A stretch of 64,000 nt of DNA, from the NCBI GenBank assembly GCA_030407315.1, contig JALQPE010002090.1, forward strand, positions 1 through 64,000. The letters run 5' to 3'. The translations under genes and the position numbers were made by a program. The notes under the pieces were generated by a model, which searched no databases, was not told the origin of the DNA, and saw only the letters and a program-made list of their open reading frames with translations. Below are positions 530 to 42,912 of the stretch, piece after piece. Source of the stretch: Asparagopsis taxiformis (Eukaryota; Rhodophyta; Florideophyceae; Bonnemaisoniales; Bonnemaisoniaceae). Each line of letters begins with the position of its first letter. The stretch's first letter is position 1.

Positions 530-3500
530 TCAGGATCTCCCGGCAGAATAGGCGTTATCGGCAACTGTGGAGTTGAATAGCTCAAGATGAATTTTTGACA
601 CCCGGTGTGAGGGTTCTCTTCTTGGGAGCTTCTCTGTCGTCTTCATCCGCATGATTCCGAGTTGCCCTGTCTTCGGCCTACGATCTTTCTTGACCGGGAT
701 GGGAACAACTGTCTTGTGGCGAACATTGACAGGTGCCGGTTGACTTTGCCTGGCAGACCGGCGCGGAGCATTGGCGATTACTTCTTCTTCGAATCCCACC
801 GCCTGATGAAACCAACGAAACATTGTCGGGAATCGGATACGACGCATTCCTGAAATACGTGGTACCTCGTTGTCGTGTGTGACACACTCTGTCGACATGC
901 CCTGCCTGCCGGCATGTTGTACATGGCCGTGACCGATGAAGACTGAACGTGGCGGAACGATTACCTTCTTCAGCTTCATCGTCTTGGCGTACATATCTAA
1001 TTCCAGCGCTTTGGAAAAGACGTACTTGTGGGACCCTGGACACACCCAGATAGGGAATGGGTCATCTCCGTTGGCAATAACAAAGTAACCCGGAAGTTGA
1101 TCTTTGCGGTCGCGAGGAGGAACAGGGAAATCATTGTGTGGGACCTGCCGAGGACACCCCTTTCCCGTTATCAAAAACCGTCCCCCAGATGCCGGCATGA
1201 CAAGTTTTTCTCTCCGGTAAACCGCACTCCTCCAGCCCTATCAGCCGGACAAGGATTCCCAACCACACATCCAGCAGGGCTCGCCGCGTCACAAACTTGA
1301 ACCGGTCGATATGCGTCTCATCGTTCTCGGCATAGTCAACCAGGCAGTGGCGCGTAGACGTGAAGCGAGCCCTCCCCTCATTCCGGTTCTTCTCATCTGT
1401 TTCATCATCGTCCCCCGTATTGACAATGGGACTCCACAGCTGCCGGTTCCCAGGGTCCTTGTGCACCTCTCCCCCTCCCACGTTCCCAAAAGTACCGAAA
1501 CAATTCCTGGTTAGGAATTTCTTCCATGAGACCCAAGTCAAATGGGAACTTGTCCGACGCATCGAGGTAGCTTACATCCGCGAAATTGTGCATCACCGTA
1601 TACCCTCGCTCGTTGATTTCCGTTCGGCAATTGTGGAAGTACGCCATACCAGTGCCGGCCTCATACGAATCCTTCCAGCTTGTAGACATTCGCGCAACCT
1701 GGGCGAAGTCCAGCCTCGAGGGTAGAAACGTCGATGTAGGCTCACACATCGCCTTGGCAGCCATCTTCCACGCTGCGAAAAACATCGGATAGATGGTGTC
1801 GATCTCGAAAACAAGATGACGAGCCCGATGTTGTTCCGGAATATGCAGCCCCTCAACACAGGGTCCATCGCCACTTGCTTCAAATACCTCACCTCTCTGC
1901 CCTCCTCATCGATTTCCACACTCTCCAATAACAACCTGAGCTCAATCGGGGCAGACAGCCAACCCTCACCGATGCGATGACGTCCGCGGGACGCTGCGCC
2001 AGATGATGCCCTTCGCTCGGTCTTTGACTTCGAAATCGTCGGAAGAGATGGCATCCGGTCGTCGAACAGGAGGTCGTGTTCAGAAGGAGAGTCACGAACG
2101 ATGTAACCGTCTTCATCGACTTCCACTCCTTCCGGAACAGTGAATGTAATTGTCACTTCGCGGACCCCCTTGCTTTCGACTTGGCCCTCGTCTGCACCCT
2201 GTTTGTCTTCCTCGTCCGAAGCGGTATGGACAGATTCTTGGTTGGAGGGAGTCGCACCAGCACGTTGGTTATCTTGGGGGACAATCTCAACGGCAGAATC
2301 GGGGGAACGGGCGGAGTCTTCGTCAACCTCATCACCGGAAGCAGTGGCTTGTTGTTGATCGGTGGGTTTATCAACAACGGCCTGCTCTTCTTCCCCGGCG
2401 GATTGTTGTACCACAACCGGCTCTTCTTCCTCGAGGCGTGTGCTCCCCGTCGAGCGAAGTCGCTGTGAACGGCGGCGGATGCCATGCGAAGCAGGCTCAT
2501 GTTCGACATTCCGCTGCTTCTTGTGAGTGAGTCTCACATTGGCAGCAGAAGGGCGGCGTTTGCGTCGAGCCTTAGTCTTCTTCTTCAATGTCGGATTGAA
2601 AAACTCTTTCAAGTTCGTTTCCAAATCCTGTAAACGCGTGGTTCTCCGTCGCATTCGAACCTCACTGCTCCGGTCGTCCCCTCTATACATTGCAATGGCA
2701 TTGGTGAGATGCCATTGCAACTCCTTCGGCTGCTTAACCGACCCAATTGCCATCTCTGTGCTCAGAAATGACTTGCGCATAATACTCTTTGGGCGCCCAT
2801 ACGCAGCGTACAGAGAATTTGCTATTGCAGTCACGCGACGGACGTATGTATAGAAGTCGTTCACGTCAAAGCGTCCATCCGGACGTCCACCATGAGCAGG
2901 GTTCAAGTACTCCGAAAGACCACGCAAGACGAAGACAAAGTTTTCTTCCAGCAACTCGCGCACTATCTTGTGGTCCAGGTGCGTTATCCCAATCTCGTTG
3001 CGGCGCTCGGAATTGTTCAGCTCACGCAACACTTCGTCGAGAACAGGATGCTTCAGCGTTGCTATAGCCAAACGCGTCCACCGCCGGGCCGTGTTCGTTG
3101 AATTCATCATCCCCATGAACTGCGCCTCGAACAATGTTCGGATGACATCAGACTCACGCAAGTCGCCAGCGTTTTCCACGTTATTTGCAACAGCAATCGT
3201 ACGGATGAACTGCTGGATGGACGACAAGATTCGAACCAGGGAGCGCTCCGTCAGTTGCGTCCCAGTCGTATGGTTCGACTCTGCACTCTTGTGGATGATC
3301 TCATGAGGCTGAAGATCACTGTCGTCCTTGCGGCGAAGGTAGTACACATCCAGAGGCTGAGTAACCCAGCGCAAGCGGTTTGCGTCCTGTGGCAGCTTGG
3401 TTCTGTGCATACGGGTGAGGCGCGTGAAGTCATCGCAATGCTATGCATAGCATTGAGACGATGCAGTCCGTCGATCACGGTCACGTTCGCATTGGCATGG

Positions 3501-4440
3501 AATTTGCCATTCTGGAACAGACGCGTGTCGGCGGGCAGATGCGTGTTCTGCGACCTCAGCACCGTCACAGTGATACGCGAAGAGCTCACATACCCCACAG
3601 CCAACATATTGTTGCGCAGGTCCTCCACGTGGTCTTCTTTCACATCCCGAAGGGTCACGGCCGGTTCCACTAGCTGCCTCACCAACACAGTCGCTCCTTC
3701 TCCGACGTAATCCGACGTCACAAACTTGGGCACCGTAATTTGCGTCCCCTGCTGCTCACGAATGCTTTCCGCCACCTCCGGTTCGTCGTCCACCTCGGTT
3801 ACGTCCTGCGTAGTAGCTTCGGTGACGTTGGAGCGAGCAGGGTGCTTCGTGCCTCCACTGGAGGGTCTTGCAGAGCGAGCAGGGCGCTTCGTGCCTCCCG
3901 AAACCGGACGGAGCGTGCTGGATGCTTCGTACCCCCCGAACCAGTGATTTCGCCTGCCGGACCGGTACTGGGCATCCGTCCCGAGCTGGCCTGGTTCGTC
4001 GCTGCGTTGAAGTTTGACGCTGCAGCAGGGGTACGAATGTCGCTAGGGCCATCCTCCGCAGCGGGGCGCATCATCCGAGTATCCCAAGGGTAAAACGCCG
4101 CGGCGTATGCTCCACCCATCGTCTCCGGCGGTCCCTCGGCGCCATCAAACATGTACGGGAACGGGAGGTCCTTGAACTTGTCCTTAGTCGCAATGTTGCG
4201 CACGACGATATAGTCGGCCTCGTCGGTTTCCGGCAGCTTGTGGTTGTGCAGCGTGCGCGGAAGGCCAACATCGCCACCAGCAGTGCTCACCGAAGCCGTC
4301 CCAATATGCACAGCCGCACCGTCCACGTCCGCAAACAAATTGACATCGACGCCGCGCTTGAGTCCGCGCGACTCCGCTGACGCGCTCACTTGATCGCCGC
4401 AAACCGTTGAAAACAAACTGCTGAAATGCGTATCCGCCAT
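530..4440 (-). pseudogene. ParB-like domain / 2OG-Fe(II) dioxygenase-like protein, frame-disrupted
   Basis: Several minus-strand frames read as one protein of roughly 1,300 residues. A start at 4440 (MADTHFSS...) leads through a short repeated segment (SGGTK-H/R-PARS), where the frame shifts. The next frame holds a ParB-like core ending in VTVIDGLHRLNAM, the family's DG-x-HR signature. The frame then changes near 3410 into a helical region and a long acidic, disordered linker, and again near 1800, 1500 and 1170. The last piece contains QVPHNDFPV (HxD), WVCPGSH and GHGHVQHAG (distal His), the layout of a phytanoyl-CoA-dioxygenase-like 2OG-Fe(II) fold. ParB-like domains bind or cut DNA and sometimes bind CTP; 2OG-Fe(II) enzymes oxidise nucleic acids, proteins or small molecules. 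The substrate here is unknown. About five shifts, several in homopolymers, suggest a pseudogene, but assembly indels would look the same. No intron boundaries fit the shifts. Confidence 0.6.
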
Positions 4441-4690
4441 GATTGTTGAGTTGGAAAGTAAAAGAGATGGTTGACGTTGACGTATTCGAGTGATGTGGAT
4501 GGTAGGTTTCACGTTGCTTGAAGAATGGTCGTGAACGCCAATCGCTGGAAATAATAACACAATACAACCGAAATTTTGTTAGGTACACACCTATCGTGAC
4601 CGCTGGAATGCAAGACAGGCAATCGAGATGTGAGTGTCCGTTCGGAACGGGCCCGAGTCGGGCTCTCGAAACCTGACGAGGTGGCGTGAA

Positions 4691-5021
4691 GCAGGCAGTG
4701 TCCTTGATGTGTAATGTGTTAAAATTACAGCTGTCAAGCTAGGCGGCTTTTGGGGCGGCTGCGAGCACCCCTTTATCCGGGAACACCCTGATTTGAGTTA
4801 AAATTTGGGCTATTCTCAAAACATGCACATGTGAACATGTTTTTGAGATGGGGGTGTGCCGTACGGCACAATCGACCCGCCCAAATCGTTGATTTTTGCA
4901 AGATTTTTTGTGCCCGAAATTTTAGAATTTCTGGGCTGGCAGCAGTGCAATCGAGCTGGACATCCACCGGACGTCCATTTCAGGTTGATCGTGTGCTGCC
5001 TACATCCACGCATTGCAGTAA
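4691..5021 (+). repeat. Left inverted repeat with hairpin module (copy 2)
   Basis: This is the inverted partner of 10776-11090. It contains the AATTACAGCTGT block, the GCGAGCACCCC block, the hairpin (one arm lacks one A here) and the GTGCCGTACGGCAC palindrome. Relative to the right copy it has an extra ~15 bp (around 4744-4760, gcttttggggcggct). Confidence 0.65.
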
Positions 5022-5830
5022 CTAAGCAGGCGGGATCACTACTAATTAAAGTGCACGGAATATGAGTAACGTGATGGGTGAGTGTGTTTGTGTTGAGGGA
5101 GTAAGGCGGGACCATTATGAACACGGAAGAAGATGCGTACCTAGCATAACTTAGGCTTGAAGCCTGGAATCGACCCATCTTTCGGCGCCATTTAGCCTTA
5201 CAGTTAGTGCTTACAGAAGCCAGTGATGACCCCGCTCGGGCGGCGGCTCCGGTTCCTGGGGCCGTTGTGGCCAAATTAGACACCCTGATTTGAATTAAAA
5301 TTTGGGCTATTCTCAAAAACATGCACATGTGAACATGTTTTTGAGATGGGGTGTGCCGTACGGCACAATCGACCGCCCAAATCGATGATTTTTTACAATT
5401 TTTGTGCCCGAAATTTTAGAATTTCTGGGCTGGCCAGCAGTGCAATCGAGCTGGACATCCACCGGACGTCCATTTCAGTTGGTCGTGAGAGAGTGAGGCG
5501 GGACCATGATGGAACAAGGACCAAGACCTGTCCCGGCGTATTGAGCCTGAATTGACCTTCGTCAGACGCCATTTAGCCTTACAGTTAGTGCCTACAGAAG
5601 CCGTGACAACCCACTCGGGGCGGCGGCCGGTGCCTGGGGCCGTTCTGGCCAAATTAGACACCTGATTTGAATTAAAATTTGGGCTATTCTCAAAAACATG
5701 CACATGTGAACATGTTTTTGAGATGGGGGTGTGCCGTACGGCACTTTCGACCGCCTAAATCGATAAAATTTTGCAATTTTTTCCTGCCCGAAATTCTACA
5801 AGTTCTGGGCTGGCCAGTAATGCATTAGCT
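5021..5830 (+). repeat. Tandem array of hairpin modules (copies 3 and 4) with conserved spacers
   Basis: Modules start near 5278 and 5655 in the same orientation as copy 2. They are separated by a related spacer that shares GGCGGGACCAT, CGCCATTTAGCCTTACAGTTAGTGC, GGGGCGGCGG-type and GGGGCCGTT(G/C)TGGCCAAATTAGACAC motifs. The repeating unit is therefore module plus spacer, about 380 bp. No reading frame in it looks like a gene. Confidence 0.75.
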
Positions 5831-6849
5831 ATCTCCTCTAAACCGATTCTAACAAGCAGAAAGAATCCTCTCCTTCATGACGATGCTCTCCATCGTCTTT
5901 TCGAAGCCATTTCCGTACGAAAAATAATCGAAAAACATATTTGACTTTAACCTAACAGCTATCGCGAGCACCGTACTCAGCTATATTTCCTCTGTAATTT
6001 CCTTCCTCCAACCAATCAATAGCCGCTTGGTCACAGGCTTAAAAGCCTTCCACTATCTGTCCTATCCATCGAAGACCCTCGGAGGGTTCGATCCAGGCCT
6101 TGATCACCATGATGGGTGTGCAACCCGAGAAAATGAAAATGGAACATATTGCGACAGGGACGAGATATCATTCCATGAAAGAGAACTTCTCTTTCGTTTA
6201 CTTTTTTCTAACAAGATTCTAAACGTCTACAAACCCTATGTCGTCCGTCCGTTTTCATCCCGGAGAGATGTGGATGTGAGGTAAGACGCAGTGGTGATGT
6301 TGTGTTGATTCCCACAGACGGAAGTGGAGGAGGTGGCTACGGAGGAAGCCTGGAGAACTTGTCCGGTACTGACATCTCACATGTTGCCATTAACGGAGGT
6401 GGTGGAGGAGGCTATGGTGCAAGCCTGGAGAACATGTGACTCACATCTCGCAGATGTCAGTACCCATGGATGAGAAGAAAAGCATGTTGAGGTGCGGTTC
6501 GGATATTCGATCCATTAACGGAGGTGGTGGAGGAGGCTATGGTGGAAGCCTGGAGAAGAATAGAGTAGTCCTATACCCATGGATCACAAGAAGACGTTGT
6601 TGGGCTCCTTTTCGAAGCCCATTCGTCTCTTGAATAAATTTAGCACCCAAATCATATACGATTGCCGAGTTGACACCCCGTATGTCTCGTTGGTAGAAAT
6701 AGCAGGGGTTCCACCACTCAGCTGGCGGGAAGTAGTTACTGATTATATGAGATATGGCTTAGCTCCCGCCAAAACCGATAGCTCTGGGCTCAGGTTCTCC
6801 AAATGTGGTTATACGAATGTGTTCTGACAATGCTAGAAGACGAATATCT
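5831..6849. other. Non-genic stretch with three Gly-rich-coding repeats and a 13-bp inverted repeat
   Basis: No gene is supported. Three copies of a ~40-bp unit coding for Gly-Gly-Gly-Tyr-Gly-Gly-Ser-Leu-Glu-type peptide lie at about 6321-6357, 6389-6431 and 6513-6557. A perfect 13-bp inverted repeat GGTACTGACATCT / AGATGTCAGTACC (6365-6377 and 6452-6464) encloses the second copy. These look like remnants of a glycine-rich coding sequence. Confidence 0.5.
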
Positions 6850-7045
6850 GCATCCTGATTTGAATTAAAATTTGGGCTATTCTCAAAAACATGCACATGT
6901 GAACATGTTTTTGAGATGGGGGTGTGCCGTACGGCACAATCGACCGCCCAAATCGATGTTTTTTTGCAATATTTTTGCTGCCCGAAATTGTAGAATTTCT
7001 GGTCTGGCCAGCAATGCATCTGAGCTGGACATCCCCATGTCCAGT
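6850..7045 (+). repeat. Hairpin/palindrome repeat module, copy 5
   Basis: The hairpin arms and the 14-bp palindrome are intact. The far end diverges after GAGCTGGACATCC into CCATGTCCAGTGG, unlike the other copies. It lies ~340 bp upstream of the methyltransferase-SET start codon. Confidence 0.8.
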
Positions 7046-7384
7046 GGCCGTCCGGATGTCGCTCACCTGGTAAGCGTGATGCACCTGTGACAACCTATGT
7101 GACTGCAGTCACAGCCGCCATGGCGGCCGTGCAGTACAACCCTCAAAGACAGGGAATCACAATCTTTTTAAAATTTTTGTCTACCACGTATCCGTCACAA
7201 CTTATTACCTACACCGGTTACGGGTTTCAAGACCTTTCCAGTGCTGTGTACCCGTATACTCTGTTCCGTTCGATATCAACCAGTGTTCCTCACGAAAGAG
7301 TGCAAACGTCACGAGATACGTCGTCAAATTTGACTGTCTCGCCGAGCGGTCGCCATCCTGTACCGAATTTCCACTCATTCCATT
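7046..7384. other. Upstream region of the methyltransferase-SET gene; nothing recognised
   Basis: 339 bp between module copy 5 and the ATG at 7385. No TATA box, repeat or coding segment is recognisable. It presumably holds the promoter and 5' leader. Confidence 0.3.
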
Positions 7385-10300
7385 ATGACGAATAAGCGCA
7401 GGCGCAACAGCAATCCGATCGTTGACGACGCAACCGTGCCAATTCTGCGCGAACCCGCTAGCCCTTGGGAGGATTCTAGTGACATGGGTACACGTCGAAA
7501 CGTAGGTCGCGCCGCCCGCGAAACTACTCTCGCTGGCAAAGACTTCCTCCGCCTCTTGCTGGATTTGTTCGCCCACTCAAGTTTCGCAGACTTGACGGAC
7601 AAGCCGGGAGGTTTCACATACGCGGACCTTGGCGCTTGGGTTGCGCAGGGCACGGAAGAAAAATTTTGGCGCTGCAAGGTCGACTCAGCATGGCCTTCAG
7701 CGGTCGTTCGAAGAATGCTGGAGTCGAGGCGGATGTTGCCGAAATCGTCATGGCAGAGATGAACGTTGAGCGAGCCAAGCAGATTGTTCGTCTGGCATTA
7801 CCGATTGCCGAGTTTTCAAGACAGGATGAGCGTATCGGGCAATGGGTTGAGCACTGCATCCTTTCTGGGATCGTGCCGCAGACCTTCCTTATTGGATGTA
7901 ACATGCTTCCTTCGCCACTACAGGCGCCGCAGCGCGGGGAACCAAGCGCCTTCGTTCTTGCTCCACCGGAAACGTTCGAGGTATTGATGTATTTCCAAGC
8001 GTTGTCTATCATCCGAAATCACAACAAGAACCTGCCGCGTCGCCGAATAGGCGACGCGGCCGAGGAGGGGAACGAAGCCGCACGCGTCCCAGCCCATCGG
8101 AAAAGCACTAATCGAGCTTGTTACGTGGTTCAAGTTTTATACCATGCTTGGACCGATGTGGCCTTCGCCGCAAAGTTTTCCAGCTTCGAAGAGTTGATGG
8201 CGCCGTACATCATTTTCGACAGCAGTGAGCATTGGTTTGACGTGCTCGATGAAGGTCTATTCGCACCGATAGAGCAGAAGCTAGATCTCTACCACGACAA
8301 AGCTCCCCTATCTCATCCTGATGGATATGGTGGAAAAGTAGAGACAAGAACCAGTGCGCAGCACAGTGTATTTAGGGACCTTGTGAGGAAGTTCTTCGAC
8401 CGGTTGCAGTTTCTTATCGTCAACCCGGACCTGTACACCTGGCCGGAGTCCGACCGCTGGGGGGCGCTGGAAATATACTTGTCAAGCGGAAATCCGGACA
8501 AGCTGCCAGCGTACTTTGACACCCTCGACGAAGACGTTATGGCTGTCCTCCGCCCGGCACCACAAGCCGCGGACGCAGAAAAGGTCCCCAAGCCGGTTGA
8601 TGACACTCCCACTCGTCGCAACACAGGAGGGAGAGGTTTGGTTCCGTCGACAAGACACACAACCAGGCTTCAACTTGGACCTGGGAGGACCAGTCTTACT
8701 GCCCAAGGGCCGTCTCCCCCGTCACCGTCACCCCATGCGACAGAAGAGCAGGAAAGTGAAGGGCAGGCTCTCGCAAAGGACTTTCTTTCGAAAATGAGTC
8801 AGTATTGCCGGGTGTACGACGTCCCTTTCGAAGATTTGGTCAGTGCCGACGAGAGCCGAGAACACGTGCCCATCACGGGCAACGTTCAGCTCATTCTGAC
8901 TGATCCGCCCTACAATGTTCGTCGTAAGAGGAACGATTCCAACTCTTCGTACGACAGGCTAACTGCAGAAGATATGCAGGCTAGCATCGAAGTGTTTGAC
9001 GAGCTGTTGCGCCCCGGTGGCCACGGCATCGTGTTCTGCTCCGTTTTGCAGTTCTACGAATGGTTCCATTACTTGGAAACGTACAAAGGACCGCAGTCAG
9101 AAGGCCCAACCGATGCTGCTGCCAGTGATGACGGGTCGGATGAAGAAGAGGTTACGTCCATGAATTCGGACTCCGAAGCATCGCAGCACAGTGGCGAAGA
9201 AAGTGCGGATGAGGAGGAGGACGAGGAGGAGGAGGACGTCGTTCGGAATTCAGTTTTCTTCGTTGACGAGGTACCTCTGTTGTTTGTCCGACTACCTGGG
9301 CACCTCTATCAAATGCCGGGGCGGAAGAGGTACCAACGCATGAACATGGCAGAGGTCGCTATCCACTTCTGGAAGCGAGGTGTTCCGTTCAAGACTGGAA
9401 GCGAGATGGTGGCCTATAGGAACCACGGATACATGGACGGCACGTACCCGGCGTGGTGCAACGTCACCATCAATATGCCCGCCATCGATTCGAATGAGAT
9501 GGTGTGGCGAACAAGGAGCACAACCGGTGCTACGGTCAGAGTTCGTGCAGAGCAGAAGAGCGTCGCTCTCATGATGGAGTTGATCAGCCAGCATTCACAG
9601 CCTGGTGATATTGTTGTCGATCCATTCTCTGGCACTTTCGCAACGGGAAAAGCAGCTATGAGCTTGCCTGAGCACCGTGTTTTCGTTGGCAGTGACATGG
9701 ACAAATTGTGTGTGGCACGATCGCTTCCAAAGCTGTGTGCAGTCATGTCACGTGTAATTCTTTCAAACAACACTGACATGAGGGTCACGACAGAAGCGAA
9801 ACAGAGTGCTGAGAAGTTCTTGGCGTCCCCCTCTGTCACGATGCGTACGCAGAGGGAACGCAGGATCATCGAACCCCCACCTGGCCTTCCCCTGTACCAG
9901 AGGTTCCCGAAATATATTCGGCAGTACCTCTGGCAGCTGTGCCCAGAGTCGATTGCGTCGCACGAGCACATGGAAAAACCGGTACATTATTGGCCACCTT
10001 CCCTGCGCCGCTGGTTGCAAACTGAAAACCCTCGCGTGATGCGGGCACACGATTGTGTTGCGAAAAAATTGAGCGTTCGACCATCGCTGATTAAGCATCC
10101 AAATGCAGGAAGAGGGCTCTTCGCTGAACAGACATTTAATGTTGGCGACGAAGTATGTGCATACTACGGAACTGTTGTGTACTCTGATATGAGCAAGGAG
10201 TCGATGAGGTTCGCGTACGGAGAGGGTCACATGGCGATAACGAAGGAAACATTCTTGATGTATGCCATCAAGCTGTATGCAACAGCGGAGGACGACGAAA

Positions 10301-10581
10301 ACATCGAGCATCCAATTTGGATTGTTCCGGCTCCGTTCTGTTCGGCGCAGTTCATCAACGACCCGCGGTATTTGCGAGGTGAGGACACTCCGGCGGAAGA
10401 CACCAGGCGGATGGCCAACGTCGAGTTTGTCGAGAACTACAGCAGCGGTTCGACGGGGAAGAAGCTCAAGGCGAAGGACCTAGAAAATCCGAAGATCATT
10501 GTAGTACGTGCAATCCGCGATATCCGTCCGGGGCAGGAGCTCTACGTTCATTATGGGACAGCGTTTAGAGCATGGAATTAG
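7385..10581 (+). CDS. Beta-class DNA N4-cytosine/N6-adenine methyltransferase fused to a SET domain
   Basis: The protein should start at the ATG at 7385 (MTNKRRRNSN). One base-level frame change within 7636-7762 leads into a 981-codon frame ending at 10581. Counting from the codon at 7636, LTDPPYN (motif IV, DPPY at 423-426) precedes VDPFSGTFATG (motif I, 662-671). That order is the circularly permuted beta class of amino-methyltransferases. An acidic Asp/Glu/Ser insert (~495-540) sits between them. The C-terminal ~170 residues form a SET domain: NAGRGLFAEQTF, VCAYYGTVV, QFINDPRY, then ANVEF and ELYVHYGTAF. It has no pre-SET or post-SET cysteine cluster. Such a protein could methylate DNA bases and lysines, coupling two chromatin marks; activity and targets are inferred. 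AATAAA follows at 10613-10618. The gene sits inside inverted repeats beside the ParB/dioxygenase gene. The single shift may be a mutation or an assembly indel. Confidence 0.8.
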
Positions 10582-10775
10582 GGTCACGAAAGATGTTTTC
10601 ATTTCGACTACAAATAAAGCTACGTTCCAGAGTTGAAGTATATCATATAATGCAGCATGTCCAGCCACCATTACTCCAGGGTGAAACCTATTGAGCAGTA
10701 CTCGCCTGTCAAAAACCAATCGTTCACACTCTAGATGCACTTCGTCCGAGCAGTGAACCTGACTGCTTGGATGCT

Positions 10776-11090
10776 GTTATGCGTGCAGATGCAAAATACA
10801 CGACCAAGTTGAAATGGACGCCCGGTGGATGTCCAGCTCAGTTGCATTGCTGTCCGGCCCAGAAATTCTACAATTCAGGGCAGAAAAAAATATTGCAAAA
10901 AACATCGATTTGGGCGGTCGAAAGTGCCGTACGGCACACCCCCATCTCAAAAACATGTTCACATGTGCATGTTTTTGAGAATAGCCCAAATTTTAATTCA
11001 AATCAGGACGTCTTCCGGACATAGGGGTGCTCGCGGCCTAGCTCTACAGCTGTAATTGTACCTCATTAAATACTGTTGATGACTGCCTAC
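10776..11090 (-). repeat. Right inverted repeat with hairpin module (copy 6)
   Basis: This is the reverse-complement counterpart of 4691-5021. It has the hairpin, the GTGCCGTACGGCAC palindrome, the GGGGTGCTCGCGG block and the ACAGCTGTAATT block. It is the only module copy in minus orientation. Confidence 0.65.
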
Positions 11091-11240: not shown

Positions 11241-13526
11241 ATGCCGCCGCGTATTGCGAAGAAAGCTCCAAAGCCTCCGGGCCTCCAGAAAACCCGGTCA
11301 GCAGCTGCTGTATCGAGTGCCCGACAATCCCGTGCGAAGAAGCGGTCTGGGCCTACCGGCAGCATTGAACCGCGGTCCGGTAGTCGCAAGACGGACCGGC
11401 GCAGAACTGGGGATCCGCAGCGAGAAAGTGAGGAAGGAGGAACGGCGCGGAGAGAGATGGGGCTTGACCGAGGCAAGCGTGCTCGCAGGGACAGTGAACA
11501 TCATGATGATGACATGATAGTGGCTCAAAACATGTTGGAATTGCGGCAGAGTGCTATGGCAAAGGTAGTTCCTCCCGGGTTGGCAGATGCGGAGGTGCTG
11601 CAGACGGAGTCCCAGCCGGGGGCTTCCGACACACTGGAGGCTGTGACCCCCACTGCGCCAACTATGCCGAGTACATCAGCCCCAGCAGGTAATGCAGTCA
11701 GGGACCCGAGGATAGCGGCAAGGGATGTTGTTTCTGAGCAACGTTCACAGGATGCCAACTATCATCGGCGGTCAGGTGGTACTGAGGGGAGAGAGCAGCC
11801 GGAGTGCGGGCCTCGTCACAACAGAGTGTCATTGGTGCCAAATATGCGCGTAACGCCCCCGCGACGTCAGGCTATTGGCGATGGAGGACATCATATTCCC
11901 GATAGCGTGGGAGATGGGGGGACGGTGAGGGCAGAGAGGTTGCATCCGCCGGAATCCATCGATTTAATGGCGAGTCGCATCAATGCGCAGAAGAAGAAGA
12001 TCGCGGAGCTGGAAAAAAAAGTGTTTAGCCAGGACATAGCAAACAAGGCGCTCACCACGGAGATTGTTGCGTTGGAGGCTAAGGTGAAGACTCTGCAGGC
12101 GGAAAATGCCAGCCTTACTGCAATTGCGAGAACAGGTAGAATCAGTGATCACGGTGGCGGTAAGTCGAAAATACAGAAAGCCATTCCTGTGAAATACCTT
12201 GGAGTTCTTAGGGCGGTTGAGGAAAACCTGACAAAGTGGTGCAAGAACGAGACTATGGAGCTGGACCCTATAGCGGAACAAACGCAGAGACGTTGGACTG
12301 GACGTACCATCGAGGTAGAGCCGGTAGAAGGGGCACTTTGGAGCGAAAACGGTGTAGGATATATTGCTACCCCTCCGGGCTATATCATCAAGAATCTGCA
12401 GTGGTATACACCTTCGTACAGAGACGAGAGTGATCTGCTGAATGACTTGGTGCGACACGTACTGCGTCAAAGTCCGTGGTGTGATGTGTTTTCCGATGAG
12501 GAGCAGCGTGTGTGCTGTCAAGAGGCTGTGGCGGGGAGCAAGGAATTGAAAGTGAAGGTGACGCAGAAACTGTCCGACGTGATGAGTGCACGGAAGCGTA
12601 ATGCGAGGGACAGATTGTTCGGTTCGCTGGGGTACACGAAATTAATGTCTAGATGCACGATGCTGACGACGCGAGCTGAGATGGACGAGCGAGAGGAACA
12701 AAAGCGCGAAGCGTCTGAGAAGCTTTTGAAACGGGAAAGTAACGGTGATTTGGATATGGGGAGGTGGCGAACGGCACCGTTCTCAGAGCTGCGATACAGC
12801 AAAGGCTTGGTTCCTGACAGCTTCGAAATGGAAGTGAATGGTGATGCATGGTTTAACAACCGAGTAGCTGTGAATGTGCTGGACATCTTCAGGGGTTATT
12901 CGATACGACCAGAACAAGTAATGGACATAGAGACGAGCATACTAACGCTGGCGCGCCTGGATGCTTGGCTAGTGACTACTGTGGAGTGTTTGGATGAACC
13001 GAAGGGGAAAGGAGGTGCACGGCAGAAGGAGTTTACAAGGCGGTACAGTCAATATGTGGGGGTAGCTTTTCAGCAATTAGTTGGTATGGTGGTGTACTGC
13101 ATGTCTTGTCTCCAAGGCTCGCAAGCAAGGGAAGAAACGGACGTTGTCGAGAGCGAACAGCGGACTAGTGCACAGTCACGGCATGTGTTTGCAAGCCGTA
13201 CTGTGACGAGAGAGGCTGTTGAAGTGTGGCAAAGCGGAGAGGGGTCTGGAATTGTTCATGTCGTTGATGATGTAAACCGCTGCTCATCACTTGTTCTAGT
13301 GTCCGAGGATTGGATTCAATCGCATATTACGTCAAACCTCGGTGCTGTAATGGATTGTGTGATTGCGCAAGGACTAATTGGCGCAGAACTTTTCGTCGTT
13401 GACCCATATGCTGGACACCTGACTGCAAACCTGAATGTCGAAATCAATGCCCCACAGTATGGGGGCATGGAGCGGCGCCATGCAGCCACTGCTGATAACG
13501 GTTTTGGCGTAATGGAGGATGGTTGA
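11241..13526 (+). CDS. Unrecognised 761-aa coiled-coil protein, convergent with the Plavaka-like transposase
   Basis: The ATG at 11241 (MPPRIAKKAP) opens an uninterrupted frame. The first ~230 residues are basic and Ser/Pro/Arg-rich and look disordered. Residues ~235-290 form a heptad coiled coil (INAQKKKIAELEKKV...LEAKVKTLQAENASL). The rest is a globular region of ~450 residues with several Trp/Cys-containing blocks (KYLGVLRAVEENLTKWCKN, LRQSPWCDVF, SILTLARLDAWLV). I recognise no catalytic motif. It ends 77 bp from the stop of the facing transposase, so the two may be partner genes of one DNA transposon, the coiled coil mediating oligomerisation. That is inference from position; a host gene is equally possible. 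Confidence 0.6.
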   Translation: MPPRIAKKAPKPPGLQKTRSAAAVSSARQSRAKKRSGPTGSIEPRSGSRKTDRRRTGDPQRESEEGGTARREMGLDRGKRARRDSEHHDDDMIVAQNMLELRQSAMAKVVPPGLADAEVLQTESQPGASDTLEAVTPTAPTMPSTSAPAGNAVRDPRIAARDVVSEQRSQDANYHRRSGGTEGREQPECGPRHNRVSLVPNMRVTPPRRQAIGDGGHHIPDSVGDGGTVRAERLHPPESIDLMASRINAQKKKIAELEKKVFSQDIANKALTTEIVALEAKVKTLQAENASLTAIARTGRISDHGGGKSKIQKAIPVKYLGVLRAVEENLTKWCKNETMELDPIAEQTQRRWTGRTIEVEPVEGALWSENGVGYIATPPGYIIKNLQWYTPSYRDESDLLNDLVRHVLRQSPWCDVFSDEEQRVCCQEAVAGSKELKVKVTQKLSDVMSARKRNARDRLFGSLGYTKLMSRCTMLTTRAEMDEREEQKREASEKLLKRESNGDLDMGRWRTAPFSELRYSKGLVPDSFEMEVNGDAWFNNRVAVNVLDIFRGYSIRPEQVMDIETSILTLARLDAWLVTTVECLDEPKGKGGARQKEFTRRYSQYVGVAFQQLVGMVVYCMSCLQGSQAREETDVVESEQRTSAQSRHVFASRTVTREAVEVWQSGEGSGIVHVVDDVNRCSSLVLVSEDWIQSHITSNLGAVMDCVIAQGLIGAELFVVDPYAGHLTANLNVEINAPQYGGMERRHAATADNGFGVMEDG

Positions 13527-13603: not shown

Positions 13604-16600
13604 TTATTCTTCTTCATTATCATCTGTGAATTGGTAATCAGTGTTGGTGTAGAAGCGGTTGAGATAGAAACGGTGGTCCGACCAGTGCATTTGTTTCGTA
13701 AATGGCTTGACTGGAAAGTTACTTCGTACGATGTGCACGGTGCCAGATATAGTAGATGCAGGAATGAGGTCAAACCAAGGACCACCTGCACTGTGGGATG
13801 CAGTGTCATTGCTGTCAACGGATCCGTTGTCCGGGTCCCATGTGGACCACTTTAAACAAATGCACCCAAGTGATTTTTCCACAGCGGTTTTTGGGGCAAA
13901 GCAGGTCATATACTGAACGAAAGCGAGTTCTACAGGTTGAAACAGGTTTGGAGACTGCAGGCGTACCAGTGCCAGGACGCGCCCTACCCATATGGTTCTG
14001 TAGTCATCGGCAGTTCCGGAGATGACGACAAAGGAGTACTGCGATCTCTTTGCGGGGCCGAACGATGAAGTTGCAAAGACGCGCTGCTGCTTGTGCCTCG
14101 ACACGTTTGTGGGGCGAAGCATGCCACTGTGCGGGTCAAAGTCGTCGGCATCTGGGACGTACCCTCCCATGACGTAGGCGGACTTTACCACGGTGACGGA
14201 AATGTCCATGTCATGTATTGGAGGGCCTTCTGCCGTGGCGCGCAGTCTAGCGAGGGTGAGGAACGCTTGTGCAGCTGTGTCACCGAGTTGCTGGAATAGC
14301 GTTATGGTGCCAGACGGGAACGAGGAGTTGTGCAGCGGCAAAAGAGTGGCAGGATCGGGCTGTCCGTCGATATCTGCAACGAGGAGGGTTGCATCGGGCA
14401 GCAGGGAGGCAAAGTCGTGCAGTGCAACGGTGAATCCGTCGCGAACGAGTACTGCACCGTCTGTGGGCGATATCATGCGTGCGTTTCCCAATGTGTTCGA
14501 TGGGGTATGACCAGTTGGAGTGGCCAAGGAGAATTCCATGTGGCGAATAGTCTCTTCCATGGCTGTGGAGCGCCTTCGAGAGGTTTTCCTATAACTCTGT
14601 TTGAACAGAAGATGCGAGTGTTCGTAGGGGCCTGCATCAATGTGTTCCAGGGCGCCATATCTCTGCAAGTCACCGGGAAGATGGTCTAGAAGATGGAACT
14701 TGAAAGTTTTGAGACCTGTGGTGTGGAATGGGCCGAGGGTGGAGAGCATTGATTGTTTGAAATAGGAAATGGAGTTCTGGAGGCTTTCTAGTTCGGCGGC
14801 AGTCCAGTGCTTGATGCGACCGCGTTTCATGACCCATGCGACGAGGTCAGAGTATTGCGTGCAGATGGAAGTGAGGGGGGCTGTATCTACTTCGTCACAG
14901 CATGTGTCAATGAATGCTGCGATGAAAGGGAACACCATGTCGACATGGTGATAGTCTTTGGCTGCGAGCATGCCGCGTATGCCGTCCTCCGTGAAGAGGC
15001 CGTTCAAATTGGTGCCCTTCTCACCCTTGGAGAAGTCGACATGAAGACCGGTGATGTAGTAGTCGCGTTCGATAGCGGACAGAATGCTGTTTGAGCCGGC
15101 GAGGATGGATTTTTTCACCTTCTTGAAGGTGCGAGGTGTCCCGGAATGGGAGGCAGTGGTGGTGAGGTCTGGGGAGCTGAGGCGGTGGACAATGCACTGT
15201 TTGATGAGCTTTGAGATGCCGAGGTGGAGATTGTGCAGAGGCTCGAAGGAGAAAATGTTGTAGGGGTCTAGGGGACTGTTGGTGGGTAAAAGAGCGGTCG
15301 ATTCGAGGACAGAGTGTTGTTCGAGGAGGGAGAGAGCTTCGAGCGGAGCAGTTGTATGCTCCTGAGCGCTCTCTTGGCGTGCAGAGCGTGTATCATCGAG
15401 GGAGCGGGGCTGGTGTGGCGCGCTGGATTCAAGTTGAGTGGCGGGGATGTAGCAGCGGTGGCAGGGATGTGTGGTGGTAGTGCTGTTGCGAGTGCATGAC
15501 AGCTCTTTGGCCTCTGGAAAGTCGCAGCAATAATTGGCTAGGATGGGAAAGCATTGGCGGGCAGTTGCAGTGGAGTCTGTGCAGGGGAACCCGGAAGAGA
15601 ACGCGGTGGATAGGGACGAAAACACTTTTTCGAGTGCTTTATGAAGAATATCAATTTTGCGAGCGCGACTAGCAGAACTAGAGGTTGTCGGCATTTCATC
15701 ACCGAACAAGGCGTTGGACGAAGGGTTAACAATGTACGGAAGATACCCGACGATGGTGAGGCCGGTACGGATGCAGTGGCGACGGAGGGGGGCGGAGAAG
15801 TTGAGCAGTGTGACGTGTATGGGGTATGCGACGATTGCGGAGCTCTTGAGGCTTGTGCTGCTCTTGTCGGAGTACACTTGGAGGAGGCCGGCAAAGGAGG
15901 AAGCGGTGGGATCATTTTCCTCTGCCCATACGACCTGTGGATCTTCCGAGAGCTGCACGCGCTGTCTAGTAACCTGGTGCAGCGTTTTCGCGAATTCTGT
16001 GTGTAGGGGATGAGAAAATATTGCGGTGCCGTCTGGGGCGGTCTGTGGGGAGGGGTGGAAGAGAGTATTTTGGTCGTTAGCCAGTGCTAACTGCCTGCGG
16101 AGCATGTCGACTGGGTCGCGGAGGTACAGCTGTGCCGAGTACTTACCAGTTTTGTCTGGAATGATGTGGCTCTTGTAACCTTCGGTGCGGAAATGTGTTT
16201 CGACCATGGAAGCGGTAACGTGGCGACATTCTTCTACGGTGCGAACGGCGCTGTTGAACTTTTCTAGGGAGAATGCGGGGTCTTGTAGGATGGTGATGAC
16301 TTCGCTCACGCGGCCAGCGCCGGCCTTGTACTCGAGGGTTGTGAGACTGGCGGCGAGGGATTGCACGAGGAGGTCTGCGCGGGAGGGGGTTGAGGTTGGT
16401 GGCAGTGAAGCGTCACAGGGTGAGTCGCTGGAGGAAGCACGACCAGATTCTGGGTCTGGGGAGCTGGGTTGCGGGGAATCATGGTCGCCGTTTCGAGCAG
16501 GCTCATGGGTGACGGCAGGGACACGAGCGTTGTTGAAATGTTGGGGAGAGGGGTTGAAACGGTAGCGACACGTTCGCTCATGCAGCGCGAGCGCATAAGC

Positions 16601-16642
16601 ATCTACGCAGTAGTAGAAGCACCCTTCATACTTGCATTCCAT
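13604..16642 (-). CDS. Plavaka-like (KDZ/CACTA-type DDE superfamily) transposase
   Basis: A 1012-aa intact frame from the ATG at 16642. Residues 3-25 form an N-terminal C-x4-C-x12-H-x3-C zinc finger (C3, C8, H21, C25), followed by a Ser/Pro-rich linker. Around residues 250-310 lies the family hallmark SDKSSTS...YPIHVTLLNF...TIVGYLPYI, with the first catalytic Asp in SDK. Further on, DPYNIFSFEPLHNLHLGISK and KTFKFHLLDHLPGDLQRYG...YEHSHLLFKQSYRKTSRR match the C-terminal half of these transposases. Such enzymes cut and rejoin DNA at inverted termini. The intact frame suggests recent activity. I found no matching terminal inverted repeats or TSD at 11.1-11.2 or 16.7-17.2 kb, so the borders are unknown. 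Assignment is by motif, not alignment. Confidence 0.65.
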   Translation of the reverse strand: MECKYEGCFYYCVDAYALALHERTCRYRFNPSPQHFNNARVPAVTHEPARNGDHDSPQPSSPDPESGRASSSDSPCDASLPPTSTPSRADLLVQSLAASLTTLEYKAGAGRVSEVITILQDPAFSLEKFNSAVRTVEECRHVTASMVETHFRTEGYKSHIIPDKTGKYSAQLYLRDPVDMLRRQLALANDQNTLFHPSPQTAPDGTAIFSHPLHTEFAKTLHQVTRQRVQLSEDPQVVWAEENDPTASSFAGLLQVYSDKSSTSLKSSAIVAYPIHVTLLNFSAPLRRHCIRTGLTIVGYLPYIVNPSSNALFGDEMPTTSSSASRARKIDILHKALEKVFSSLSTAFSSGFPCTDSTATARQCFPILANYCCDFPEAKELSCTRNSTTTTHPCHRCYIPATQLESSAPHQPRSLDDTRSARQESAQEHTTAPLEALSLLEQHSVLESTALLPTNSPLDPYNIFSFEPLHNLHLGISKLIKQCIVHRLSSPDLTTTASHSGTPRTFKKVKKSILAGSNSILSAIERDYYITGLHVDFSKGEKGTNLNGLFTEDGIRGMLAAKDYHHVDMVFPFIAAFIDTCCDEVDTAPLTSICTQYSDLVAWVMKRGRIKHWTAAELESLQNSISYFKQSMLSTLGPFHTTGLKTFKFHLLDHLPGDLQRYGALEHIDAGPYEHSHLLFKQSYRKTSRRRSTAMEETIRHMEFSLATPTGHTPSNTLGNARMISPTDGAVLVRDGFTVALHDFASLLPDATLLVADIDGQPDPATLLPLHNSSFPSGTITLFQQLGDTAAQAFLTLARLRATAEGPPIHDMDISVTVVKSAYVMGGYVPDADDFDPHSGMLRPTNVSRHKQQRVFATSSFGPAKRSQYSFVVISGTADDYRTIWVGRVLALVRLQSPNLFQPVELAFVQYMTCFAPKTAVEKSLGCICLKWSTWDPDNGSVDSNDTASHSAGGPWFDLIPASTISGTVHIVRSNFPVKPFTKQMHWSDHRFYLNRFYTNTDYQFTDDNEEE

Positions 16643-18800: not shown

Positions 18801-18921
18801 GAGACGTATTGTATACGAGCAGTTTCCTAAATGAGAGAATAAAATACGGTCCGATATGGGCCCTGAATTTACCATCCGCTGTAATTTCTTCCCTCCCGGT
18901 TTTCGCTGATATATTGTATAC

Positions 18922-19265
18922 TGGATGTCGGGTCCTAGTATTCCGCCATATGTACTAGAGAAAGTGGATGTCGGGTCCTAGTATTCCGCCATATGTACTA
19001 GAGAAAGTGGATGTCGGGTCCTAGTATTCCGCCATATGTACTAGAGAAAGTGGATGTCGGGTCCTAGTATTCCGCCATATGTACTAGAGAAAGTGGATGT
19101 CGGGTCCTAGTATTCCGCCATATGTACTAGAGAAAGTGGATGTCGGGTCCTAGTATTCCGCCAAACGTACTAGAGAAAGTGGATGTCGGGTCCTAGTATT
19201 CCGCCATATGTACTAGAGAAAGTGGATGTCGGGCCCTAGTATTCCGCCATATGTACTAGAGAAAG
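18922..19265 (+). repeat. 43-bp minisatellite, eight copies
   Basis: Eight head-to-tail 43-bp units start at 18922, 18965, 19008, 19051, 19094, 19137, 19180 and 19223, each beginning TGGATGTCGGGTCCTAGTAT. Only copies 6 and 8 have clear substitutions, so the expansion is recent. There are no spacers between units. Confidence 0.97.
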
Positions 19266-19407
19266 TGGACGTCCGCATCCAAAAAATTTTTATTTTTTTT
19301 GGACGCGGACGTTCATTTGTTCTAGTAAATCTCGGGGCCGACTAGGACCCGTACTAGAGAGACTGGACGTCCGCGTCCACTTCCGAAAACACAGACGTAG
19401 CGATTGA
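19266..19407. repeat. Inverted repeat ending the minisatellite
   Basis: TGGACGTCCGCATCC (19266-19280) and GGACGCGGACGTTCA (19301-19315) pair at 13 of 15 positions around an A/T-rich loop. An inverted copy of the minisatellite core (ACTAGGACCCG) and a second GGACGTCCGCGTCCA follow. This looks like the decayed end of a foldback-type element from whose edge the 43-bp array was amplified. Confidence 0.6.
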
Positions 19408-26542: not shown

Positions 26543-29500
26543 ATGGTGACTCAGGAAGAGATAGGGGTCACCGAGGGGGGCGAGGATTCGCCGGCGACTC
26601 GTCCTCCTATCCCCACCACACAGGACCAAGAGGTTGCCATCTCATCCGATGCATCGCCTCGGACTGATGTTCCTGTCCTAGCCGTCGGAACAAAGAACTA
26701 CCGCGTGGACGTCCTTTTCGCTCTCAAGAGTGAAAAATACGCACACGTACCAGCAATTCTGGACACTGGTGCTAGCTTGAGCGTGTTCAAGGAGTCATGC
26801 CTACCGGCAGACTGGAAAGAACGCTATCCGTTGGATTTATTACCCGCAGGGGTGCACGTCCTGGACGCTAATGGGAAGCGCATGCCGCCGATCGCGTTAG
26901 CAACAATACCAATCCAAGTCGGAAGATCGTCTCTGCGTCAACGTTTTATCGTAGTGGAGCAGCTATCAGTGTCCTGTATCCTGGGCTGCGACTTCATCAA
27001 CGCAGCCGTCGAAGCCATACTACCAAAACAGAAGGTAATGGTACTGCAGCGGACTCAAGAACGGGTGCCGATAGGGTGGACGAAGCGCCCAGAACGGCTA
27101 AGGCCCAATACTGCAAGGACGAGAAACGACGGTGTTGACAGGACAATACGAATCGCCAAGAGGACTCTCCTGCGCCCTGGAACCGCCACAAGAGTACCAG
27201 TCGTTGCCCGCACGGAGGGACTCCAAGTCATGGTGCCCTATAAGGAATTATCGGATAACCGCCAAGTCCAAATGCTCAATGGCATCGCAACCATCCGGCC
27301 ATTGGTGCCCTTTGGAGTGCAGGTTATGAACTTCGGCGGCCGCGACGTATGGCTACCGAAAGGGATGGTCATGGGACATACTGATGGTCCACCACCTGCC
27401 ATACTCACCCTACAGGGCCAGAAACCCAAAGGAAATCCAGCTCCAGACGAGCAGCCGAAGGAAACCTCTAGGCTAGGAAAGCCGAATGATGCAGATGACT
27501 GGGAACAGAACCTACTCACCGACATGGAACTGAAGGACAGATCATTGAAGAACCGTATCCTCCAAATGCTGCGGCGGCACTCTACCATGTGGAGCGGCCA
27601 CCTGGGAGAAATAGCCGCCACGGAGCACCGCATTCAGCTCCACGCCGGTGTCCGCCCAATTCGCCAGGCACCTTACCGAGCCGGTCACAAAAACCGGGAG
27701 GTGATTTCCGCCCAGATACAAGAAATGCTCGATGCCGGAGTCATCGAACCGGCGCAATCAGAATGGGCTAGCCCGGTGGTGGTGGTGCCCAAAAAGGATG
27801 GATCCTCCCGCTTTTGCGTCGATTACCGGAAACTAAACTCCGTTACGGTGAAAGATGCATACCCCATACCCCGGATGGATGACTGCATCGATGCGCTTGG
27901 AGAAGCATGCATTTTCACAACCTTGGATTGCAATAGCGGCTATTGGCAAATCCCTGTCGCGCCGGAAGACCGTGAGAAGACTACCTTCACGGCCCACGTT
28001 GGGTCCTACCAGTTCCTCCGAATGCCTTTCGGACTAACTAACGCACCTGCGACCTTCCAAAGAGCGCTGGATATACTGCTCTCGGCGGTAAAATGGCGCT
28101 TTTGTTTGGTCTATCTGGATGATGTTATCATCTTCTCCCGCTCAGAGGATGAGCACCTGACTCATGTAGACGAGATACTAACGATATTACGAAAAGCGGG
28201 AGTGACCTTGAAGTTCAAGAAGAGCGAATTCTTCAGGCGCAAGGTCGACTACCTAGGCCATCGCATCCGACCCGGACGCCTAGAAGTCTTGTCACAGGGC
28301 TTGAATGCGATACAAGGGGCAGAGTACCCCACCACGCAGACTCAACTGAGAAGTTTCCTGGGTTCTTGTAATGTATATCGCAGATTCGTGAAGTCTTTCG
28401 CTAAACTCGCCGCCCCGCTGACAGAATTGCTGAAGAAGGGAGCTCCAACTAGCCTAGGGGTCCCATCGGTCGAACAGCAATGTGCGTTCAACGCACTGAA
28501 GGAAGCGCTAATATCCCCGCCGATACTATGTTTACCGAAACCGGGAATGCATTACACCCTCGACGTGGATGCTTCGGATTACCAGTTGGGTTGCGCGCTA
28601 CTCCAGGAGCAAGAAGACAAGGTTCTCCACCCGGTTGGTTACTGGAGTAAAACCATGAATGACGCGCAAAGAAGATACTCTACAACGGAGAAGGAGTGTC
28701 TGGCGGTATTCTGGGCCATATCACTACTGCGCCCGTACCTCGAGGGGACAAGGTTCACCGTCAGAACGGATCACAACGCCCTGACGTGGATCCTATCTAT
28801 CACCCCCTCAGAGGGGAGGCTCGCTCGATGGAGGTTACGCCTAGCCGAATTCGACTTTGACATCGAATACCGTCCAGGCGTCAAGAATGTAGTCCCCGAC
28901 TCACTCTCGCGCTTACGGACAACCGGAACGGATAAGTACCCCATCGAAGAGGAGATTCCAACCTTCCTGATCAACGAGCAATTGGACGCAGGTGCGTCCA
29001 ACAGCGAAGAATGGGGAGAAGAGATGTATCCCGCACTGTTGCGTGAATCCGTTCCGTGTTTTGTAAATCTCACACAGGCCCTACCAATCGCTATTTCACG
29101 CGACGAATGGGTAGTCGAGCAAAGCAGAGACGACCTATGCCAGACCATCCAGGGAAGGATGGAACGGGGAGAACGAACCGAATACGCTTGGACGACAGAA
29201 GGGGTGCTGGTTCGCACCCACCCGAGGACCCGAAGCGTTCAAGTCGTGGTCCCAGAAACACTTCGCCCTCGCTTACTCAAGGCTTACCATTTTTCGGCCA
29301 TTGCAGGACACCCTGGGATACGGCGAATGTACGAAACCCTTAAGCAAAACCTCTACTGGCCGTCAATGATCGTTGAAGTGTATGCGACTGTGAGGGGTTG
29401 CGAGACATGCGCCAGAGACCGTGTCCAATTGTCGCGGCATACCAACCCGCTGCAGTTATTTCCAGCGACATATCCCTTGGAGGAGATCGCAATTGACATA

Positions 29501-38071: not shown

Positions 38072-38729
38072 TGTGGAACCACGTTAGTTCTAGATAGCTG
38101 GTACGAGCTACGGACACGCTGTCCTTACGAAACGAAACGAGCAGTCCACCCGCTGGTGTTTGACTGTATGTTAGGTAGAAAGGTAGAGATAGGTTAGCGA
38201 GTAGACACGAGCGTCACGACGCAACAATCCACGTGAGGATTACGTTCGGTAAACGAGGTGGCACGTCACCGGAGGCGCTCTCAACCAAGCCCGGAGGCAC
38301 TACACGCAATCAGCCTTACGTGCGGCGATGGGTAGGGAGTACGCAGCTCGACGGAGACGAGGCCTCGTTAGGCAAAACGTAAACGTAAACGTAGAAGTCA
38401 GTCGTAGACTAGAGCCGTTGCTCGATCGTTGTCTTGTCCCCTTTCCCTCCCGGCACGATGCCAATACCTATATAGCCACGATGGCATCGCTTTACAGTGT
38501 AAACACTGCTCGTAACGTCCCCGAATGGGAAGGGACCTTGTGGGTCACACGTAGGGACCCGTTGGTCCGTTGGCCGTTGCCAATACGTTCGTTGCACACG
38601 TGTGCAGGTTGCGCGCGCGCATGCGCCAGCAATGTTCGTTCATTGCTGTCGCCGGTCGTATCCGGCGAAATTCGAATTCCGCGGAAAAACGTAAATATTT
38701 GCAATTTCGGAATTGCCACGTATACTACA
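38072..38729 (-). repeat. Gypsy B 3' LTR (outer left, 658 bp)
   Basis: It runs TGTGGAACC...ATACTACA on the plus strand. I found no difference from 55071-55728. Next to it (38730-38745, plus) CAGCCCCACCCCCACA is the minus-strand polypurine tract. Confidence 0.95.
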
Positions 38730-38745
38730 CAGCCCCACCCCCACA

Positions 38746-39324
38746 CGTGGACGTCCCGGCCACGCGAGGCCCGTCAGGACGCGCCTGAGACACGGGGCCG
38801 TGGCGCCTTTTCGGGTACAACTGCGGACGTGGCAGTTGTCCCGAAAAATCTCGTTGAAACGTACATGGCCCGGTTGGCTGATCGAATCGCCACGGCGCCG
38901 GAGCGCGCGCGTGCGCTCCGGCTCTTTCGTAATCATCGCGGCCCGCCCGTTGGCGTCGTACGTCAATGCCTCGCTTAGGCGTTTTCCTGCAACGGATGCA
39001 GTGTCCAATTCCACCACGCGGGTGTGCTTCAATTCAGCGCGATACGAGCGCAGGCCGCGGCCTTTTCGTGAATCTGCCAGCGGGCATGTCGACAACGGTC
39101 GTCCGAAGGATATTTAAGCGGCGGCTTAACGTGATAGCGATCGTCGCTCACCCTTCCTCTCACCATCGTCATCCAGGCCGTTGCCTTTCGTTCTCCCTTA
39201 TCCTCTTCCCCCGCTGGGTACTACTACCTCCGTTCCTTTCGTTCTCTTGTTCCGTTTAGCCCGCGTGGCTCTCGTCGTCGTGCTCGTTGCACTCGTCGTA
39301 ATTATCGTGTACAGCGTAACCACG
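38746..39324. other. Leader of antisense gene copy 1
   Basis: It contains ATATTTAAG at 39110-39118, a possible plus-strand TATA box ~215 bp before the ATG at 39325. It is conserved in the second unit (43293-43301). No other feature is recognised. Confidence 0.35.
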
Positions 39325-42242: not shown

Positions 42243-42912
42243 TGTGGAACCACGTTAGTTCTAGAAGTAGCTGGTACGAGCCAGTGGACACGCTGTCCTT
42301 AACGAAACGAAACGAAACGAGCAGTCCACCCGCTGGTGTTTTGACTGTATTGTTAGAACGGTAGGAAGGTAGAGTGGTTAGCGAGTAGACACGAGCGTCA
42401 CGACGCAACAATCCACGCGAGGATTACGTTAGCACACGAGGTGGTACGTCACCGGAGGCGCTCTCGACCAAGCCCGGAGGCACTACACGCAATCAGCCTT
42501 ACGTGCGGCGATGGGTAGGGAGTACGCAGCTCGACGGAGACGAGGCCTCGTTAGGCAAAACGTAAACGTGAACGTAGAAGTCAGTCGTAGACTAGAGCCG
42601 TTGCTCGATCGTTGTCTTGTCCCCTTTCCCTCCCGGCACGATGCCAATACCTATATGGCCACGATGGCATCGCTTTACAGTGTAAACACTGCTCGTAACG
42701 TCCCCGAATGGGAAAGGACCTTGTGGGTCACACGTAGGGACCCGTTGGTCCGTTGGCCGTTGCCAGTACGTTCGTTGCACACGTGTGCAGGTTGCGCGCG
42801 CGCATGCGCCAGCAATGTTCGTGCATTGCTGTCGCCGGTCGTATCCGGCGAAATTCGAATTCCGCGGAAAAACGTAAATATTTGCAATTTCGGAATTGCC
42901 ACGTATACTACA
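42243..42912 (-). repeat. Gypsy B internal LTR (670 bp)
   Basis: It has the same ends as the outer LTRs (TGTGGAACC...ATACTACA), but several small insertions (for example AGAAGTAG for AGATAG, and an extra GAAAC unit) and substitutions. One of these turns the TATATAG promoter word into TATATGG. It is followed by the same polypurine tract (42913-42928, plus). Confidence 0.95.

Follow-up and report, generated by a model that had tools for sequence, protein, structure and literature searches.

A predicted DNA amino-methyltransferase–SET fusion carried by a giant Plavaka transposon in the red alga Asparagopsis taxiformis

We analysed a 64,000-nucleotide stretch of the genome of the red alga Asparagopsis taxiformis (hereafter the window; positions 1–64,000 of the forward strand of contig JALQPE010002090.1, assembly GCA_030407315.1). 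The genome has 13 matches to the phycobilisome linker family, which by themselves suggest a red alga, though contamination or a different phycobilisome-bearing alga could also account for them. At 7385–10581 on the plus strand the window contains a gene whose product is predicted to be a single chain with a permuted (beta-type) DNA amino-methyltransferase (MTase) joined to a SET domain. Sequence comparison indicates that this MTase-SET gene is the cargo of a giant DNA transposon (20–23 kb) that encodes a Plavaka transposase, and that the transposon is highly amplified in the algal genome. In the window copy the 5′ end of the gene is interrupted: the ATG at 7385 opens a separate frame of 125 amino acids (aa) at 7385–7762, and the long frame, which lies in a different reading frame, starts with a TTG at 7636 and continues to 10581 on the plus strand. 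This long frame is intronless, encodes 981 aa and includes both domains.

Pfam profiles matched both parts of the 981-aa frame, namely, N6_N4_Mtase (PF01555) at residues 417–690 (8884–9705, plus strand; E 2.4e-15, 57.5 bits, cut-off 26.7) and SET (PF00856) at residues 825–974 (10108–10557, plus strand; E 8.6e-7, 29.8 bits, cut-off 22.4), the latter over positions 1–105 of the 105 in the profile. The order of the MTase motifs is permuted, with the catalytic LTDPPY at 8896 ahead of the S-adenosylmethionine (SAM)-type motif DPFSGTFATG at 9619, and the SET part has GRGLFA at 10108, FIND at 10351 and GQELYVHYG at 10531. A preliminary description of this DNA had proposed such a fusion on the basis of a DPPY preceding motif I (the beta permutation) and of GRGLFA, FIND and HYG motifs in the same frame, and the profile matches and motif positions confirm it. 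In the VIA structure list the fold matches shown span residues 471–792, the MTase part only, so that the list makes no statement on the SET part; the best match listed there is CcrM, and the MTase domain is probably CcrM/HpyAVI-like. We take the DPPY motif to make N6-methyladenine (6mA) a likelier product than N4-methylcytosine (4mC). A SET fold was found in the predicted model by Foldseek, with SUV4-20 (E 2.5e-4) and MLL1 (E 2.9e-4) as matches.

Copies of the gene were retrieved by DNA search, in which 40 of 1251 first-look candidates were scored. Among 30 genomic copies, including that of the window, 26 form a single 1065-aa frame from an ATG equivalent to that at 7385, two are of 1083 aa, and the remaining two, L032 and the window copy, have an interrupted frame; all 30 retrieved 6.2-kb loci differ from one another in sequence. 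A single frame over 7385–10581, as given earlier, is not present in the window itself, where the gene is broken near its start and the ATG at 7385 belongs to another frame. Relatives were sought among 5.8 billion predicted proteins, with 7999 candidates scored, and a single-sequence search yielded eight: P0001 at 98 % identity and seven at 25–33 %. An alignment-based repeat of this search (about 8000 candidates scored) gave P0001 alone. SET lies above the Pfam cut-off in four of the eight (P0001, P0002, P0003 and P0007), and both domains are present in three of the seven distant relatives (28–30 % identity); the motifs GxG-F, IND and ELxxxYG are kept in the window protein, P0002, P0003 and P0007. 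Since 26 of the 30 copies are one frame and three of the seven distant relatives have both domains, the fusion is no artefact of gene prediction. It is real, and the window carries a broken copy of the fused gene.

A phage or prokaryotic source of the whole protein was considered and rejected: a tblastn search with P0001 matched none of 50,697 phage records; at least 19 loci were matched in viral contigs and 92 relatives in prokaryote genomes, and these matches (for prokaryotes, the best 80 of the 92) were confined to the methylase part (query residues 467–823), the loci themselves being uninspected for SET.

The gene is flanked by inverted repeats at 6853–7034 (plus strand) and 10827–11008 (minus strand), which are 92 % complementary and contain 14-bp palindromes at 6924–6937 and 10924–10937. 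The preliminary description had placed the gene inside inverted repeats and had suggested that it may be an epigenetic tool of a mobile element. The repeats are genuine, as is the membership in a mobile element, which is supported by a Plavaka transposase, terminal inverted repeats (TIRs), a TA duplication, an empty site and a near-fixed gene spacing; the repeats are, however, internal and not the element termini. Homology between copies extends far past the gene and continues across the flanking repeats on both sides, which rules them out as element ends, and the pair belongs to a set of related repeats, at least six in number, internal to the element.

The true borders were located by comparison of element ends (946 left and 1088 right candidates at first look, 40 of each scored). 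The right end lies at window position 19397, with a 33-bp TIR at 19365–19397 (minus strand) followed by TA at 19398–19399, the right copy of the target-site duplication, and preceded by subterminal tandem repeats with a period of 43 bp at 18836–19351 (plus strand). The window's contig stops short of the left end, which was located at L047:4945 (C1666:61444). The 33-bp TIRs differ at two positions between the ends, and the termini read CGTCTGTG..CACAGACG. Three copies with both ends, C503 (23,155 bp), C364 (23,005 bp) and C52 (20,044 bp), have TA at each end (three of three), and TA was present at 18 of 20 right ends retrieved (18 distinct flanks, three ends sharing one flank), these 20 having been chosen by match score, which favours TA. 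The C503 insertion lies within another repeat, and its joined flanks with a single TA had 261 genome matches (≤3 mismatches), one of those listed being exact, against 0 for a reversed control; both borders and the TA duplication are therefore fixed for this copy. The 33-bp TIRs and 2-bp duplication agree with the TIRs and 2–3-bp duplication given for Plavaka elements in the relevant part of one paper (PMC12730594). The same part lists TGT..ACA or CATCA..TGATG as the termini of PlavakaA and PlavakaB, and because the termini found here differ, we file the element under neither. The window copy and C364 share one and the same right flank, and C1666 has a left flank like that of C364, so these three may be one insertion assembled repeatedly.

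The Plavaka transposase is encoded at 13604–16642 (minus strand) as an open frame of 1012 aa (PF18759, E 1.6e-24, 87.2 bits, cut-off 26.3). The MTase-SET gene is separated from it by a gene at 11241–13526 (plus strand) for a 761-aa protein with only sub-threshold coiled-coil matches; the 761-aa gene occupies this place in all copies read that far (the window, L040, L041 and L046), with the frames of the region broken in L041. To the left of the MTase-SET gene, at 530–4560 (minus strand), the window has an interrupted homologue (frames 530–1198, 1593–3410 and 3799–4560) of a 1358-aa protein; the frame is open in L039:1069–5145 (minus strand) and, as in the window, broken in L042. No relatives of this protein were found at E 0.001, searches of Pfam, PHROG and NCBIfam gave no family even at E values up to 1, and its predicted model was unusable (pLDDT 32). 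A stretch in its C-terminal part is reminiscent of 2-oxoglutarate dioxygenases, but the best match in a PDB sequence search was an antibody at E 2.1, and the assignment is not claimed.

We compared the positions of SET and transposase matches across the genome, using 123 scored Plavaka hits of 1208 candidates and 150 scored SET hits of 1661, with 10 SET hits of at least 50 bits excluded as host-like. Both were present on 43 contigs, of which 37 showed one of two near-fixed spacings: opposite strands at 4641–4838 bp, as in the window (28 of 43), or the same strand at 8722–9093 bp (9 of 43). The other six (C41, C49, C69, C388, C430 and C476) were unpaired. L046 (C480), of the same-strand type, corresponds to an inversion of about window 5278–11013 between internal repeats, and the MTase-SET segment is thus reversed in 9 of the 37 paired copies, representing either an invertible segment or a subfamily. 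Comparison of one reversed gene with 30 window-type copies revealed no private sites among those listed, and does not distinguish old from ongoing inversion.

Each of the six internal repeats in the window contains the 14-bp perfect palindrome GTGCCGTACGGCAC, at 84–97, 4856–4869, 5353–5366 and 5731–5744 in addition to the two sites beside the gene. The 19-bp surround GGGGTGTGCCGTACGGCAC is mismatch-free in six of six, with 0 expected from shuffles. Because the repeats are already about 91–94 % identical when gaps are allowed (the ungapped values of 70–88 % overstate divergence), this exactness is merely suggestive, and the idea of a specially constrained site is weakened; the palindrome is a candidate protein-binding or methylation site and, more speculatively, a candidate docking site for an element protein. 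It occurs 8237 times in the 141-Mb genome (reversed control, 0), probably for the most part owing to the repetitive nature of the element. In the C1666 element, the pieces read contain 10 palindromes (three in L047, six in L039 and one in L040). If an element typically holds about 10, a rough estimate gives approximately 800 element equivalents, which would amount to about 19 Mb (13 % of the assembly).

The genome contains further methylases. Among 150 scored N6_N4_Mtase hits (2605 candidates), 27 had the profile span of the MTase-SET family and 123 did not (a count by span). Other methylase families were seen at L001–L008 and L042:7977–9890, some with a DGxHR motif at the N-terminus (present in L003, L006, L007 and L008); L004–L008 end in a Cys-rich stretch at the C-terminus, and no Pfam SET was called in the three proteins scanned (L003, L006 and L042, all partial frames). 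Several methylase families thus reside in repeated sequence of this genome, and SET is joined to one among those examined. Elsewhere in the window lie Gypsy-like polyproteins (26543–31114 and 48040–52629), whose C-termini presumably resemble chromodomains; two adjacent near-identical frame blocks (38328–41553 and 42511–45737), an apparent duplication; a hAT transposase frame of 615 aa with a BED finger (57096–58943); and a 675-aa open frame (60058–62085) in which NB-ARC and the APAF1 helical domain score above their cut-offs.

We propose, with a probability of about 0.6, that the fusion acts as a transposon-borne dual writer, most likely of 6mA and a lysine mark, that marks the element's own DNA and gives it a private chromatin state against host silencing. 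A bacterial-type DNA methyltransferase fused to a SET domain in this way would be an unusual tool for a transposon. The MTase domain would place a methyl group on DNA, most likely at N6 of adenine, and the SET domain would methylate lysine in a histone or another protein; with both marks placed on the DNA of the element, the resulting chromatin state could allow escape from, or tuning of, host silencing, and the repeated palindrome might, speculatively, dock one of the element's proteins. We favour self-marking against silencing because transposons of other lineages carry TET/JBP or SET genes (PMC12730594, in the part that treats them) and because the enzyme is kept intact. A more specific version can be put forward only tentatively: one protein would write coupled marks, 6mA and a lysine mark, on the element that encodes it, nucleated at the GTGCCGTACGGCAC palindromes, perhaps with a DGxHR partner, producing a heritable private chromatin state over perhaps a tenth of the genome.

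Several observations weigh against the dual-writer reading. At 29.8 bits the SET match scores low, and the MTase-SET model has a mean pLDDT of 62. The SAM-contact motif of SET domains usually includes NH, which is frequent in active enzymes and unneeded for the fold; the window protein reads ND at this place (FIND), as do P0002, P0003 and P0007, and we therefore claim a SET domain but no proven lysine methyltransferase. In P0005, P0006 and P0008 the C-terminal region is alignable but has no Pfam SET call, and P0004 ends early; some members of the family may therefore do without SET. Among the 27 open 1065-aa copies (20 distinct), 19 distinct nonsynonymous and 17 synonymous changes give a site-corrected ratio of 0.33, a depletion of nonsynonymous changes (binomial P 0.001) that is a limited test because these copies resemble the window most closely and because alleles, or one insertion assembled more than once, may be among the contigs. 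Likewise, all copy numbers count contig stretches that are not proven separate insertions, and the copies are not all independent. Finally, some flanks are not TA (L041, TT; L066, AA; L067, GA; and the left end L072, AA).

The ND motif would also suit a different role for the protein, namely, that the MTase is a transposition switch, with methylation of the ends or internal repeats timing excision to replication and with SET serving only as a chromatin tether. Dam methylation controls the transposition of Tn10 and IS50 in this manner, CcrM, the best fold match, is a cell-cycle methylase, and the MTase-SET gene accompanies the transposase at a near-fixed spacing. A mere tether would, however, have no need of GxG-F, IND and ELxxxYG, yet these are kept from the window protein to P0002, P0003 and P0007, and we consider the switch unlikely.

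Less probable still is a weapon among transposons akin to restriction–modification, in which the fusion would be the modification arm, marking self against rival elements, and the 1358-aa gene would encode a DGxHR/ParB-like nuclease. The motif DGxHRxxA is invariant across the 1358-aa protein and the N-termini of P0003, P0004, L003 and L006, and the same genome has the further methylase families described above; a bacterial ParB-methylase with a nicking ParB domain is reported in the relevant section of PMC5512222. ParB profiles, however, gave no significant match (the best, each at E 0.09, were phrog_1033 for P0003 and the Pfam family DndB for one of the five N-termini), a profile of the five DGxHR N-termini retrieved no ParB structure, only mS31 (E 0.055) and an engineered protein (E 0.75), the nuclease is putative, and the SET domain is left unexplained. 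That the fusion is decaying cargo carried passively by the transposase would fit the interrupted window and L032 copies and the 1358-aa gene broken in the window and L042, but is highly improbable given 26 open copies of 30, the depletion of nonsynonymous changes and both domains in relatives at 28–30 % identity.

The dual-writer element resembles several known systems in part, as far as the sections of the cited papers bearing on them go. Bdelloid rotifer N4CMT is described as a horizontally gained host gene with a chromodomain and no SET domain (PMC8885841), whereas the gene here encodes a SET domain and is transposon cargo. Fungal DNA transposons, Plavaka among them, carry TET/JBP (PMC12730594) and thus share the transposase family and an epigenetic enzyme on board; there, the enzyme is a 5mC (5-methylcytosine) oxidase, and here a predicted methyl writer with SET in a red alga. 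HarbingerS and MuDR transposons of Phytophthora carry SET (PMC12730594) and, like SETMAR, link a transposon to a SET lysine methyltransferase, but their transposases are others, and the sections concerned mention no DNA methyltransferase in the same chain. The giant Plavaka-linked repeats of Amoebidium also have intron-poor genes, but their named cargo is tyrosine recombinases, the recombinase genes having their only database hits in distant lineages, red algae and dinoflagellates among them, and MTase-SET is not mentioned in that section (PMC11244446). ParB-methylases of phages and conjugative elements join an adenine methylase to a ParB-superfamily domain (PMC5512222), recalling L003 and L006 with their DGxHR N-terminus, but are prokaryotic and lack SET, and the link to ParB here is one of motif only. 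In the portions of the open-access literature covered, we found neither a fusion of MTase and SET nor a methylase-bearing Plavaka element of a red alga; the search did not extend to Repbase reports or subscription papers.

Whether 6mA or 4mC are working marks in eukaryotes is disputed, and bacterial methylases may be spread by mobile elements. An amplified element with an intact methylase-SET gene makes the question testable, with many near-identical targets and a defined enzyme in one genome. If the proposed activities are true, the protein would be a natural enzyme in which a single chain couples the methylation of DNA with that of lysine, and a dual writer would be added to the range of transposon-borne epigenetic tools, alongside TET/JBP oxidases and SET genes that stand alone.
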